Part shown: positions 77 through 15,821 of the stretch, in pieces
Numbering within the stretch: the first letter of the stretch is position 1
Layout: each line of letters opens with the position of its first letter
Source: an uncultured Pyrinomonadaceae bacterium
GTDB lineage: Bacteria > Acidobacteriota > Blastocatellia > Pyrinomonadales > Pyrinomonadaceae
Assembly (NCBI GenBank): GCA_902805935.1
Contig: CADCUR010000055.1
Location: 1 to 39,189, forward strand
DNA: 39,189 nucleotides
Direction: 5' to 3'
Program-made: the position numbers and the translations under genes
The notes under the pieces: model-generated
The model's input: the letters and a program-made list of their open reading frames with translations, nothing else
Databases searched by the model: none
What the model was told of the DNA's origin: nothing

Positions 77-128
77 TTGCGGTCGCGCAAGCTATGCGGT
101 GGAAATTTTTACACCGATTGGAGAATTT

Positions 129-1082
129 ATGGCGAAATTACTTGACCGGGTTCGCGCTCTGATGCGAATGCGGAATTATAGCTATGAAACCGAGAAACGA
201 TATGTTTATTGGATTCGCCGTTACATTGGCTTTCACAACATCAGAAATCCGGTTGAGATGAGCGTGCCGGAGGTCGAGGCGTTTTTGTCGCATATCGCGG
301 TCGAAGGCAGAGTTTCAGCTTCAACGCAAAATCAAGCACTTGCTGCGCTGCTTTTTCTTTACCGCGACGTTCTCGGCGTGGATTTGCCTTGGCTCGAAAA
401 ATTTACGCCGGCTAAGAAATCTGATTATGTTCCGGTCGTTCTAACAAAAGATGAAGTAAAACAAATTCTCGGACATTTGAAGGGAACGAACCGGTTAATC
501 GCCGACTTGCTCTACGGCGCGGGTCTGCGTCTAATCGAGGCTTTGCGGCTGCGCGTCAAAGATTTGGATTTCGGATTCAAACAGATAATTGTCCGCAGCG
601 GTAAAGGCGGCAAAGACCGTTTTACAATTTTGCCAACGAAGTTAATCGAACCGCTGCAGGAGCAACTGCGAATTGCCCGAAAATTACACGAAGCGGATTT
701 GCGGCGTGGGCTTGGGCGAGTCGAGATGCCGTTCGCGTTCGAAAGAAAATATCCGAATGCCCAGACCGAATGGGGCTGGCAATTTGTTTTCCCCTCGAGC
801 AAGTTGAGCGTCAACGCGCGCAGCGGCAATATGGGCAGGCATCACGTTTCGGCTTCGAGTCTGCAAAAGCCGTTCAAGGACGCGGTGCGGAAAAGCCGCG
901 TCCCGAAGAACGCCAGCCCGCACGCGCTTCGCCATTCGTTTGCCACGCATCTTTTGCAGGACGGCTACGACATCCGCACGATTCAGGATTTACTGGGACA
1001 CAAGGAAATTTCGACGACGATGATTTACACGCACGTTCTGCAAAACAACCGGCTCGGCGTGCGAAGCCCGATTGATGCTTAA
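129..1082 (+). CDS. intI: Integron integrase (IntI-type tyrosine recombinase)
   Basis: Tyrosine recombinase motifs ([60 protein letters not shown]) plus IntI-specific insert [21 protein letters not shown] and GRHH; ends GVRSPIDA as in IntI. ATG 129 has GGAG at 120-123. Confidence 0.9.
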
Positions 1083-3620: not shown

Positions 3621-3653
3621 CCAAAAACTAAAAACTAAAAACCAAAAACTAAA
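3621..3653. repeat. Heptamer array (CYAAAAA)n, about 5 units
   Basis: CCAAAAA CTAAAAA CTAAAAA CCAAAAA CTAAA, running into the hflX stop codon (3649-3651). Confidence 0.8.
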
Positions 3654-5352
3654 CTGCCACAGGATGCAAATTTGAAGTCATAACTTTGCCGACGACTTCC
3701 CCGATTTTTTCCACTAAAGGTTTTAATGTTTGTGATTGAATAGCTGAAATTGCCACGCTTTCGGCTTGTTTGTCAAGCCAAAGCTGCCGCTGTAGAGATT
3801 CTAAAGAAATTTCGTCGAGCAAATCCGCTTTATTTAAAACGACCAGACGCGGGATATTGTTTAACTCAAGATCGAGCAAAATTTTATCAACCGACTCGAC
3901 GTGTGCCAATGCCTGCGGACTCGCCGCGTCAACGACGTGGACGAGCAAATCGCTGTCCGAAATTTCTTCGAGCGTAGCGCGAAAGGCGGCGACTAAAGTT
4001 TCCGGCAAATCGCGGATAAATCCGACCGTATCGTTGATGATAATTTCCTGCTCAATCGGCAGACGCAGACGGCGCGATGTCGGGTCTAAGGTGGCGAACA
4101 TTTTCTTTTCCGCGTAAACCTTGCTCTGCGTCAAAGTGTTCAGCAAAGTTGATTTTCCGGCGTTCGTGTAGCCGACTAGAGAAATAATCGGCACGTCGCG
4201 GCGCATTCTTTCCTTACGACGCTGCTGCCGCTGCTTTCGCAGATTCTCGACTTGTCGTTCGAGATGCGAGATTTTATCGCGCACGCGGCGGCGATCGGTT
4301 TCGAGCTTCGTTTCGCCCGGTCCGCGTCCGCCGATGCCGCCCGCGAGTCTGGAGAAAGCCGAATTTTGTCCCTGCATCAAACGCGGCAAAAGATATTTTA
4401 ACTGCGCGAGTTCGACTTGCAGTTTCCCTTCGCTCGATTGAGCGCGCTGGGCGAAAATATCGAGAATCAACTGCGGTCGGTCAATCACCTTCAATTCGGT
4501 CGCTTCGGACAAAGAGCGAACTTGCGTGGGCGAAAGCTCCGAGTCGAAAACGATTAAATCCGCTCCTAAACGCATCGCTCTGATCAGCAGTTCTTCTAAT
4601 TTGCCGCGTCCCAAAACGGTTTTCGGGTCAATCTTCGGGCGGCGCTGAATGATTTTGTCCAGCACAATTACGTCAGCCGACAGCGCGAGTTCTTCGAGTT
4701 CGGTCATTGATTCTTCGGCTTCGGACTGATAGCCGTCGGTTACGCCTACTAAAATCACACGGTCGCGCGTCGTCTGTTTGTTGCGCGCCGTTAGACGATT
4801 TCGCGCCATCTCGTTTTCCAAGGAATTTATCAAATTGATAAAATTCGTGTCGAGATGCGCGGGAATCGTCGGCGCTAAAAATTCGTAAGAAAGCGATTGG
4901 CTTTCGGTCTCTAATTTTTCGGCGGTCGTCGGCAGCAGATGCGCCGAATAGACGTTGTTCGGCAAACCGGTTTCGCGGTCAACCTGAATCGTCGCCATTA
5001 AATCGAGCCGCAAAAGAGCTAAGTCGGTCAAATCATCCTGCGTTAATTTTTCCCCTGAAAACTGCGTGTGAATGCAGCGCAGACCGCGAAAACGGTCGGC
5101 GGAAACGCGGGCGCGTCCGAAGTCCGGCATCTCGATGCGCTTCGCCGTGCCGACCATCACGTATTCGACTTGTCCCTTGCGGTTGATAAGGACGCCGATT
5201 TGTCTGCCCGTCTCAAAAGATATTTCCGTGAGCTGCCGTGCGAGTTCCGGCGAGACGATTTGTTCGGGCGCGACGCGCCGTGTGGCGAGCCGCTCGATGC
5301 GTTTTAACTGATTTTGTTTTAAGCCTTGCGTAAAGCCGCTGATGTTACTGAT
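3649..5352 (-). CDS. hflX: GTPase HflX; true start probably at non-canonical ATC 5350-5352 (ORF track begins at GTG 5160)
   Basis: GLSPTQ-like N-terminal domain, SRLAGGIGGRGPGETKLE, G1 GYTNAGKSTLLN, G4 NKAD. In-frame extension reads SNISGFTQGLKQNQLKRIERLATRRVAPEQIVSPELARQLTEISFETGRQIGVLINRKGQVEYV, like the HflX N-terminus; SD GGAGG at 5364-5368. Confidence 0.85.
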   Translation of the reverse strand: MSNISGFTQGLKQNQLKRIERLATRRVAPEQIVSPELARQLTEISFETGRQIGVLINRKGQVEYVMVGTAKRIEMPDFGRARVSADRFRGLRCIHTQFSGEKLTQDDLTDLALLRLDLMATIQVDRETGLPNNVYSAHLLPTTAEKLETESQSLSYEFLAPTIPAHLDTNFINLINSLENEMARNRLTARNKQTTRDRVILVGVTDGYQSEAEESMTELEELALSADVIVLDKIIQRRPKIDPKTVLGRGKLEELLIRAMRLGADLIVFDSELSPTQVRSLSEATELKVIDRPQLILDIFAQRAQSSEGKLQVELAQLKYLLPRLMQGQNSAFSRLAGGIGGRGPGETKLETDRRRVRDKISHLERQVENLRKQRQQRRKERMRRDVPIISLVGYTNAGKSTLLNTLTQSKVYAEKKMFATLDPTSRRLRLPIEQEIIINDTVGFIRDLPETLVAAFRATLEEISDSDLLVHVVDAASPQALAHVESVDKILLDLELNNIPRLVVLNKADLLDEISLESLQRQLWLDKQAESVAISAIQSQTLKPLVEKIGEVVGKVMTSNLHPVAV

Positions 5353-5509: not shown

Positions 5510-5537
5510 TCAAATCTTGAATCCAGAATCTCGAATC
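5510..5537. repeat. Heptamer array (TCAAATC TTGAATC CAGAATC TCGAATC) upstream of lexA-like gene
   Basis: Four consecutive 7-mers, constant AATC with variable leading bases. Confidence 0.65.
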
Positions 5538-5551
5538 TATACAATCGAGCA

Positions 5552-6169
5552 ATGCAGCCGCGCACGAAACGACAAAAGGAAGTCTTCGAATACATCAAGC
5601 AATACGTGGAAAAACACGGCTACGAGCCGTCGTACCAATTGATTGCCAGACAAATGGGAGTCAACTCGAAAGCCGGAATCGCCAAACACATCGAAGCTCT
5701 CGAAGCGCAGGGCTTGCTGGCGCGGCGTAGGGAAAACGGCAGTTTTTGGATTGATTTACGTCCCGCCGCAACTATCGCCGACGCGGTTTGCGAAGTCGAA
5801 TGGCTGATGATTCCGAAAGACGAAACCTACGTCGAAGATTGGGAAAGCCAACCGCTTTACGTGCCGAAATTTCTGCTCGGCAGCCACGACCCGGAAGATC
5901 TGCGAGCCTTTCGCGTGACGAGCGATGCGATGTTCGACCAGCATATTTGCGAAGGCGACGTTGCGCTGATTGAAAAACGCTCTTATGCGCGCGACGGCGA
6001 CATCGTTGCGGCATTGACCGGCAAACAAATCTTTCTCAAACAATTCTACCGCGACGGAGCGCACATCGAACTGCGTCCGGCAAACAACGACTACATAACT
6101 CTGAAACTTCCGGCAAACAAGGTGGAAATTTTAGGCGTTTATCGCGGACTCATCAGACCGTTTGTTTGA
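5552..6169 (+). CDS. lexA: LexA-family repressor, apparently lacking catalytic serine and cleavage site
   Basis: LexA-like winged helix (RTKRQKEVFEYIKQYVEKHGYEPSYQLIARQMGVNSKAGIAKHIEALEAQGLL) and S24-like C-terminal fold (LRAFRVTSDAMFDQHICEGDVALI; VEILGVYRGLIRPF). Confidence 0.85.
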   Translation: MQPRTKRQKEVFEYIKQYVEKHGYEPSYQLIARQMGVNSKAGIAKHIEALEAQGLLARRRENGSFWIDLRPAATIADAVCEVEWLMIPKDETYVEDWESQPLYVPKFLLGSHDPEDLRAFRVTSDAMFDQHICEGDVALIEKRSYARDGDIVAALTGKQIFLKQFYRDGAHIELRPANNDYITLKLPANKVEILGVYRGLIRPFV

Positions 6170-13658: not shown

Positions 13659-15821
13659 TTACATCGTTGCCAGCACCGCGCGGATTTCGCCGTAGCTGTA
13701 AGCCTCGCCTAAAGATTCCTTAACGGGCGCGACAGCGAAACCGGCGTTTAGACGAATAATCGCATTTCTTATCGCTTCGATTTTATTCACATGAACGAGG
13801 TCGTCGAGCGCCACTTCGCCGCTCGGAATAAATCTGACGAGATGCGTCTCGACCGTGCTGATTGCAATTCCGCGCGATTCGGCGATTTCAGGAATTGAAA
13901 GCCCAGATTTGAACATATCGAGCGAAACATCGTAGGTGGTTTGCCCGCTCTGGTCGCGCTTCGTCCGTGTTTTGATTTCGCGTTTCGGCGTTTTCAGATT
14001 GATGCGCGAAGTCAAATTGTTCCGGTCGCAGTAATCTGTAATCGCTTCTAAAAAATCAGCGCCGTATTTCTGAAGTTTCAAATCGCCGACGCCGGAAATT
14101 TTTCGCATCTCGTCTTCGCTCTGCGGCAAAAACGTCGCCATTTCAATCAAGGTCGCGTCCGAGAAAATAACATACGGCGGCACATTTTCTTCGCGGGCGA
14201 AAACGGTTCGCACTTGCCTGAGTTCGTCGAACAAATCTTTGAGATATTCGTGTTCGAGTTTCGAGACGAGCGACTTTTCCCGTTTGTCTTCTTTAATCGT
14301 GACCTTGAACAACTCGACGCGCTCGGTGCCGCGCAGCACGTCCATACTTTTTTCCGTTAAAACAATGGTCGGGTATGTTCCTTCGGTTTGTTTCAGGTAA
14401 CCCTGCTCGATTAAATCCTTAAAATAATCGAACCAGTTGTTTTTTGAAACGTCCGCGCCGACGCCGTAAGTTTTCAAGTTTTTGTGTTCGTCCCGAATCG
14501 TCTTCGCCTGCGAGCCGCGCAGGAAATCAATCAGATAGCTCAAGCCGAAACGCTGCCCGGTGCGGTAAACCGCGCTCAATGCTTTTTGCGCGATAATCGT
14601 GCCGTCGAATTTTTCAAACGTCGTGTTGCAGTTGTCGCAATGCCCGCAGTCTTCGGTCAATTCTTCGCTAAAATAATTGAGAAGAAATTTTCGGCGGCAA
14701 GTTTTCAAATCGCCGAACGCGCCCATCGTGTTCAGTTTTTTGAGCATTATTTCGGTTTGCGATTTATTGCCTTCGACTTCGGCGAAACCTTTCAGTTTGT
14801 TGATGTCGCCCCAACTGAAAAACAACAGCGCTTCGGACTCTAAACCGTCGCGTCCGGCGCGTCCGGTTTCCTGATAATAGCTTTCGATGTTTTTCGGCAA
14901 ATCCATATGCACGACGAACCGCACGTTCGATTTGTCAATGCCCATTCCGAACGCGATTGTGGCGACGATGATTTTCACTTCGTCTTTTAAAAATAATTCT
15001 TGATGCTTGTCGCGCATTTCCTTGTCGAGACCGGCGTGATAAGCGAGCGCGTCGAAACCTTCGTCGCGCAAATCCGCCGCCAGACTGTCCGCCGAATTGC
15101 GGCTCAGACAATAAACGATGCCGCTTTCCGCACGGCGCGATTCGAGATATTCGAGCAGCCGGGCGTAGGAATTTCGCTTCGGCTCGATCTTGTAAAAAAT
15201 ATTCGGACGATTAAAACTCGAAACAAACAGCGCGGCGTTTCTGATAGCTAATCGTTCGACAATATCGTTCCGCACCAACTTATCGGCGGTCGCCGTCAGC
15301 GCAATTAAAGGAACGTCCGGGAAATACCTTTTTAGTCGTCCGAGCTGAATGTACTCGGGTCGAAAATCGTGTCCCCAACTCGAAATACAATGCGCTTCGT
15401 CAATTGCAAACAGCGATACGTTGATTGATTTCAAAAAGTCAATAAACTGGTCGCCCGACTGAAGAAGACGTTCGGGCGCGACGTAAAGCAGTTTTAATTT
15501 GCCGCTTCTGACGGCTTGGAAAACTTCGGTCTGCTCGCGCCCGGTTTGCGTCGAATTCAAAAACGCGGCTTCGACGCCGTTATTTTTCAGCGCGTCAACC
15601 TGGTCTTTCATCAATGCGATGAGCGGCGAAATCACGACCGTTAAACCGTCGAGCATCAGGGCGGGGATTTGGTAACACAAGGATTTTCCGCCGCCGGTCG
15701 GCATCAAAACGACGCAATCTTTTTTTTGCAGCACGGCGTCAATCGCCTGCTCCTGATTCATCCGAAACGAATCGTAGCCGAACTGACTTTTGAGAATTTC
15801 TTTTGCCCGTGCGATGTTCAT
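13659..15821 (-). CDS. recQ: ATP-dependent DNA helicase RecQ
   Basis: FGYDSFRMNQEQAIDAVL, MPTGGGKSLCYQIPAL, DEAH, GIDKSNVRFVVH, ETGRAGRDG, CxxC zinc motif (CGHCDNC), C-terminal HRDC and HTH. Confidence 0.95.
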   Translation of the reverse strand: MNIARAKEILKSQFGYDSFRMNQEQAIDAVLQKKDCVVLMPTGGGKSLCYQIPALMLDGLTVVISPLIALMKDQVDALKNNGVEAAFLNSTQTGREQTEVFQAVRSGKLKLLYVAPERLLQSGDQFIDFLKSINVSLFAIDEAHCISSWGHDFRPEYIQLGRLKRYFPDVPLIALTATADKLVRNDIVERLAIRNAALFVSSFNRPNIFYKIEPKRNSYARLLEYLESRRAESGIVYCLSRNSADSLAADLRDEGFDALAYHAGLDKEMRDKHQELFLKDEVKIIVATIAFGMGIDKSNVRFVVHMDLPKNIESYYQETGRAGRDGLESEALLFFSWGDINKLKGFAEVEGNKSQTEIMLKKLNTMGAFGDLKTCRRKFLLNYFSEELTEDCGHCDNCNTTFEKFDGTIIAQKALSAVYRTGQRFGLSYLIDFLRGSQAKTIRDEHKNLKTYGVGADVSKNNWFDYFKDLIEQGYLKQTEGTYPTIVLTEKSMDVLRGTERVELFKVTIKEDKREKSLVSKLEHEYLKDLFDELRQVRTVFAREENVPPYVIFSDATLIEMATFLPQSEDEMRKISGVGDLKLQKYGADFLEAITDYCDRNNLTSRINLKTPKREIKTRTKRDQSGQTTYDVSLDMFKSGLSIPEIAESRGIAISTVETHLVRFIPSGEVALDDLVHVNKIEAIRNAIIRLNAGFAVAPVKESLGEAYSYGEIRAVLATM

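Follow-up and report, generated by a model that had tools for sequence, protein, structure and literature searches.

The textbook account of the bacterial DNA-damage response has self-cleavage of LexA as its switch. The locus described here raises the question of what becomes of LexA, and of the genes that answer to DNA damage, in a lineage whose LexA has lost the residues on which this switch depends. LexA has been replaced by other regulators in Deinococcus (PMC8072749), Bacteroidetes (PMC8565304) and Francisella (PMC13148647), and a non-cleavable LexA is known from Synechocystis, where the protein is not an SOS switch but regulates other genes and has been studied for its post-translational control (PMC7567884, PMC3091678, PMC4759255). 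In the literature open to us outside subscription journals we found no paper linking LexA with Pyrinomonadaceae, and no LexA-independent response in Acidobacteria.

Results

A LexA Protein Without the Means of Self-Cleavage

The window (the whole stretch of 39,189 nt that was analysed) contains an open reading frame that an initial annotation had assigned to the LexA family. This assignment is borne out by Pfam (LexA_DNA_bind, 59.2 bits; Peptidase_S24, 69.8 bits), by NCBIfam TIGR00498 for lexA (123.9 bits, above the cut-off of 110.95) and by comparison with sequences in the PDB, where phmmer pairs the protein with Thermotoga maritima LexA (3k2z) at 2.8e-28 and also matches Escherichia coli LexA. 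The features of the gene are:

5552–6169, plus strand: LexA orthologue of 205 aa, predicted to be non-cleavable (translation, Pfam, NCBIfam, phmmer, MAFFT)
5552–5746, plus strand: LexA winged helix-turn-helix DNA-binding domain, residues 1–65 (Pfam PF01726 at residues 1–59; column counts)
5783–5842, plus strand: linker AVCEVEWLMIPKDETYVEDW, replacing the Ala-Gly cleavage region (alignment, column counts of the clade)
5855–6139, plus strand: Peptidase_S24/dimerisation domain, residues 102–196 (Pfam PF00717; model matches LexA C-domains)
5927–5929, plus strand: GCG, codon of Ala126, aligned with the nucleophile Ser119 of E. coli (translation, phmmer, MAFFT)
6038–6040, plus strand: AAA, codon of Lys163, aligned with the catalytic Lys156 of E. 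coli (sequence, MAFFT)

The solved structures nearest to a model of the protein (mean pLDDT 83, pTM 0.57) are LexA proteins, that of T. maritima ranking first, followed by 1jhh, the S119A mutant from E. coli. Full-length TM-scores are low because of the domain orientation, and the C-domain taken alone reaches a TMt of about 0.8 to known LexA. Judged by both domains, TIGR00498 and its place in the tree, the protein is a LexA by descent, and it shares with canonical LexA (E. coli, T. maritima 3k2z; TIGR00498) the two domains, the fold and the conserved helix-turn-helix. Similar DNA was not found in plasmids.

What sets it apart from canonical LexA is the loss of the parts that cleave and are cleaved. 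phmmer pairs the VTSDAM region with VKGESM or VSGMSM, placing Ala opposite Ser119 of E. coli, and MAFFT agrees, with Ala at the nucleophile, Lys at Lys156 and the Ala-Gly missing; no alignment places a Ser at the nucleophile. The annotation had read an Ala nucleophile, a retained catalytic Lys and a linker devoid of Ala-Gly; translation and the two aligners confirm the first, translation and MAFFT the second, and MAFFT the third. A self-cleaving SOS repressor has the Ala-Gly bond, the Ser and the Lys; this protein has only the Lys, and as far as its sequence can tell it is unable to cleave itself by the known chemistry. The broader proposal that it is a non-cleavable regulator that keeps the DNA-binding and dimerisation fold stands as regards the absence of self-cleavage and the presence of the LexA DNA-binding and S24 domains. 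The annotation's further step, to a repressor whose derepression would use another signal, is a conjecture.

These features extend far beyond one genome. Our survey of 119 Pyrinomonadaceae genomes gave a LexA match in 92, in two groups: group A, which includes the protein of the window, and group B, at about 31% identity. Group A divides cleanly into 46 canonical orthologues, all with AAG, Ser and Lys, and 41 of which none has AAG. The Gly preceding Asp-Ser-Met (the GDSM motif) is present in 46/46 canonical proteins and lost in 41/41 of the others, in 40 of them to Asp or Asn. At the nucleophile position the 41 have 23 Ala, 15 Ser, 2 Gly and 1 Met, and within the genus of the window Ala occurs in seven of eight sequences, including that of the window, with Ser in one (L011). 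The DNA-binding domain is strongly conserved across cleavable and non-cleavable orthologues by column counts, and the non-cleavable proteins share a new linker motif, C-E-(I/V)-E-W-L-x-x-P, with W84 in 37/41.

That the linker was replaced by a newly conserved motif, and not merely scrambled, could suggest that another protease (e.g., ClpXP or a further protease of the S24 or M78 type) cuts it in trans, so that LexA would still be a damage-responsive repressor. HdiR and DdrO provide precedents, in that inactivation of a repressor, or its completion, can be left to other proteases (PMC8565304, PMC8072749). No protease gene is linked to lexA, however, and we regard this explanation as unlikely. 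An error of sequencing or assembly, or a misalignment at the nucleophile, might be suspected in an assembly of 317 contigs but is refuted by the Ala and the linker being common to independent genomes, with Ala in most congeners, and by the concordance of two aligners.

In the genome to which the window belongs (3.87 Mb, 317 contigs, 89.9% complete) a single lexA was found, and no second, canonical copy. Its other S24 matches, a 233-aa signal-peptidase-type ORF and a 112-aa S24/S26-like ORF, were rejected as a second lexA, being signal-peptidase-like and without the LexA DNA-binding domain. Group-B LexA is canonical and in several genomes adjoins an ImuA-like gene; seven genomes with non-cleavable LexA (G002, G003, G004, G006, G008, G030, G032) have a group-B match as well, in some of them only as a partial alignment, and none was found in the genus of the window. 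The regions upstream of group-B lexA (L056–L070, L122) contain a candidate operator of their own, TTCG-N6-TTCG, in 11/15. We also considered a loss of SOS mutagenesis, as the own genome lacks Y-family polymerases (PF00817), and rejected it since six congeners have one. The window itself further encodes an integron integrase (126–1082, plus strand; TIGR02249, 444 bits, cut-off 265).

Cleavage Was Probably Lost Once and the Gene Kept Under Selection

In a tree of group A from which the linker, Ser and Lys columns had been masked, the 41 non-cleavable proteins form one clade with an SH-aLRT of 92, slightly under the level starred by the program, and the cleavage state changes once. Within this clade the Ser needs eight changes and the Lys five. 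By this reconstruction a single loss of cleavage took place, in the common ancestor of about ten genera that make up a sub-lineage. Since the Gly is lost in 41/41 while the Ser varies, we suggest that the Ala-Gly linker and the GDSM Gly disappeared first or together in that ancestor, and that Ser and Lys changed afterwards, each more than once.

Such a gene could simply be decaying, LexA having little function left once cleavage was gone and now being on its way out. Branches are longer in the non-cleavable clade, Ser and Lys have been lost repeatedly, and many genomes of genus g22 are without any LexA orthologue that we could find, several of these being 97–99% complete. Against this, pairwise dN/dS is 0.08–0.18 in eight of nine non-cleavable pairs (dS was saturated in the ninth) and thus, at about 0.1, resembles the 0.03–0.12 of canonical pairs; the low values hold for both domains, the reading frame is open in nearly all of the genes, and the linker has gained a conserved motif with its W84. 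We therefore think decay improbable. Purifying selection on the non-cleavable lexA points to a protein that works although it is not cleaved, and we propose that it persists as a folded DNA-binding protein.

The lexA Locus

5517–5545, plus strand: putative promoter, TTGAAT (5517–5522), 17-bp spacer, TACAAT (5540–5545) (sequence)
3649–5160, minus strand: hflX-like GTPase gene, divergent from lexA (sequence, locus comparison)

The TACAAT ends 6 nt upstream of the lexA ATG. A −10-like hexamer 3–14 nt before the start is found in 28/34 non-cleavable vs 0/17 canonical group-A genes, and from its position the lexA mRNA is probably leaderless. The divergent hflX–lexA pair occurs at 15 of the 48 lexA loci compared, all 15 of the non-cleavable type and none canonical. 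It is only through their common intergenic region that hflX and lexA become candidate targets of LexA. When the upstream regions of 41 genes were searched for dyads and direct repeats, no operator of the non-cleavable LexA was found, only AT-rich or repeat-derived words.

A Palindrome at recA and Other Repair Genes

The own genome has recA, and upstream of it lies GTTTCA-N4-TGAAAC. This agrees with a consensus, GTT(T/G)CA-N4-TG(A/C)AAC, common to recA, ruvA, ruvB and genes for Rad52-like and Sak4-like proteins. We surveyed recA in 65 genomes, allowing both GTT(T/G)CA and TG(A/C)AAC, and found the palindrome (p≤0.02 vs shuffles) in 25/27 genomes with non-cleavable LexA, 16/16 with canonical LexA and 20/22 of the remainder. 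The last class comprises 20 g22 genomes lacking an orthologue of LexA, including two (G064, G081) with only a distant S24 match; 18 of the 20 have the palindrome. It also holds two g23 genomes (G086, G097) that do not qualify as LexA-less (group B is present in G097). As the shuffles preserve nothing but base composition, and some of the same regions had served to read the consensus in the first place, individual p-values are no more than a guide; stronger evidence comes from the constant position of the palindrome and from the test upstream of the XRE gene, described below.

It could be argued that the non-cleavable LexA still binds this palindrome, as a constitutive repressor or co-repressor relieved by something other than self-cleavage. 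Its DNA-binding domain is, after all, strongly conserved, and perfect palindromes at recA are commonest among the genera with non-cleavable LexA. On the other hand, the g22 genomes without LexA keep the palindrome, at scores about equal to those of g22 genomes that have LexA. LexA normally represses its own gene as well, yet in a control upstream of lexA the palindrome was found in just 1/68 cases at p≤0.05, which is chance level. Continued binding by LexA is accordingly a doubtful reading to us, and the comparison across genomes shows a predicted operator at recA that does not need LexA.

A pattern with up to one mismatch barely exceeds its reversed control, for which reason only exact sites were used in scanning the genus. 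In the own genome there are five exact sites (three for the reversed control), every one of them at a repair gene or the XRE gene: at recA, two between the XRE gene and a Rad52-like gene, one at a second Rad52-like gene and one at a Sak4-like gene. In genomes of the genus the palindrome was found at ruvA, ruvB, topoisomerase IB, Rad52-like and Sak4-like genes, and at a gene for an XPB-like helicase that is transcribed divergently from ruvB; in other congeners some exact palindromes fall inside coding regions, where they are without meaning. The nearly complete, LexA-less genomes G056 and G071 have exact sites at the XRE/Rad52-like genes, a RecA-like imuA and a DinB-superfamily gene, with further sites at ruvA in G056 and at recA in G071; the imuB that follows imuA is named from its position and, in G071 alone, from a weak match to the Y family. 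In the window the palindrome was not found, including near a RecQ-like helicase ORF (13659–15821, minus strand).

Some neighbours of the palindrome deserve mention. Rad52-like and Sak4-like families are best known from phages, and here two annealing proteins of the Rad52-like kind and one Sak4-like protein stand under what appears to be a chromosomal DNA-repair operator (L304, L311, L231, L313). A protein of about 190 aa without a Pfam match (L218:1259–1849, L225:1218–1775) is encoded divergently from topoisomerase IB, with the palindrome between the two. In LexA-less genomes, the palindrome is followed by a DinB-superfamily (PF05163/PF12867) gene at loci L303 and L307.

An XRE Regulator and Its Putative M78-Like Partner

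The intergenic region that holds two palindromes separates the Rad52-like gene from a gene for a 132-aa XRE protein (G000:C92:4160–4555). This protein is present in 108/119 genomes, LexA-less ones included, at 66–100% identity among full-length matches, and is more conserved than LexA. A palindrome lies within 260 bp upstream of its gene at all 27 readable loci and is perfect at 25. Its likeness to DdrO is weak and limited to the HTH (E about 0.005–0.01), and homology over the full length was not found.

Among the matches listed, an M78-like gene lies directly downstream of the XRE gene in 19 of the 23 canonical genomes examined, and away from it in all 14 non-cleavable or LexA-less genomes examined. 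The M78-like proteins are orthologous (50–87% identical), and in Foldseek searches a mycobacterial regulator and Deinococcus IrrE/PprI are the sole matches with a probability of about 1 (E 0.003–0.06). Despite the IrrE fold, they lack the HExxH of an M78 metalloprotease: the first His is replaced, so that the motif reads EExxH, in 11/11 aligned proteins (family L318–L334), in which E107, E108, H111, H116, E142 and E143 (L324 numbering) are invariant. The EExxH may be either a metal site with a Glu ligand or the mark of a dead protease retained as a sensor. In the own assembly, 89.9% complete, the partner was not detected, a PF06114 match there being weak (3.3e-4).

Discussion

We favor the reading, to which we give a probability of about 0.68, that LexA lost self-cleavage once and persists under selection, and that the genes of the DNA-damage response are run by the XRE protein with its M78-like partner. 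DNA-damage control would then most likely lie with a pair resembling PprI and DdrO, and this would have freed LexA from self-cleavage, a loss made tolerable because another regulator controls the genes in question. We suggest that the XRE protein most likely binds GTT(T/G)CA-N4-TG(A/C)AAC upstream of its own gene, recA, ruvA, ruvB and the Rad52-like and Sak4-like genes, as well as at the imuA–imuB palindrome of LexA-less genomes, and that it represses these genes until DNA damage, when the M78-like protein would inactivate it as PprI does with DdrO. LexA would by now regulate something else. For a wider version we see even chances, namely that the whole family runs its damage response without LexA, the autoregulated XRE protein and its EExxH partner of IrrE fold controlling recA, ruvAB, the single-strand annealing proteins and, in genomes devoid of LexA, ImuA–ImuB, while LexA, having lost cleavage once, would have taken a new role in some genera and vanished in others.

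Known systems resemble parts of this arrangement. Like the LexA of Synechocystis sp. PCC 6803, the protein of the window has no Ala-Gly bond and no catalytic Ser and keeps the DNA-binding domain. Unlike in Synechocystis, where Gly-Gly and Asp are found, it and its relatives have Ala, Ser, Gly or Met in the nucleophile position, together with a newly conserved linker motif; and whereas the Synechocystis protein was reported to be exceptional among 26 cyanobacterial genomes, the loss here spans a clade of about ten genera. The protein belongs to the Synechocystis type by resemblance in kind, which does not imply common descent of the loss.

With PprI(IrrE)/DdrO of Deinococcus (PMC8072749, PMC10904395) the family shares a LexA-independent palindrome, here a predicted operator, upstream of recA, repair genes and the XRE gene itself, and a partner protein of IrrE fold (3dte, 8slm). 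It differs in that the palindrome is another one, the likeness to DdrO is confined to the HTH, the partner is shorter and has EExxH, and the host is a family of Acidobacteriota. By this analogy, the XRE/M78-like pair would be a PprI/DdrO system only in the sense of working like one. DdiA of Myxococcus xanthus is likewise an XRE regulator in a LexA-independent DNA-damage response, but there it switches on dnaE2 and inhibits recX alongside a LexA that still functions (PMC12288472).

What is new here is the loss of cleavage throughout a clade, from a single origin, beside an alternative operator found family-wide. Cleavable, non-cleavable and absent LexA coexist in one family, in which the repair genes are tied to a different operator throughout. 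How a central stress response passes from one regulator to its successor, and what fate awaits the old one, is thereby made testable. The family includes the cultured relative Pyrinomonas methylaliphatogenes K22, and its candidate PprI/DdrO-like damage response lies outside the Deinococcus group.
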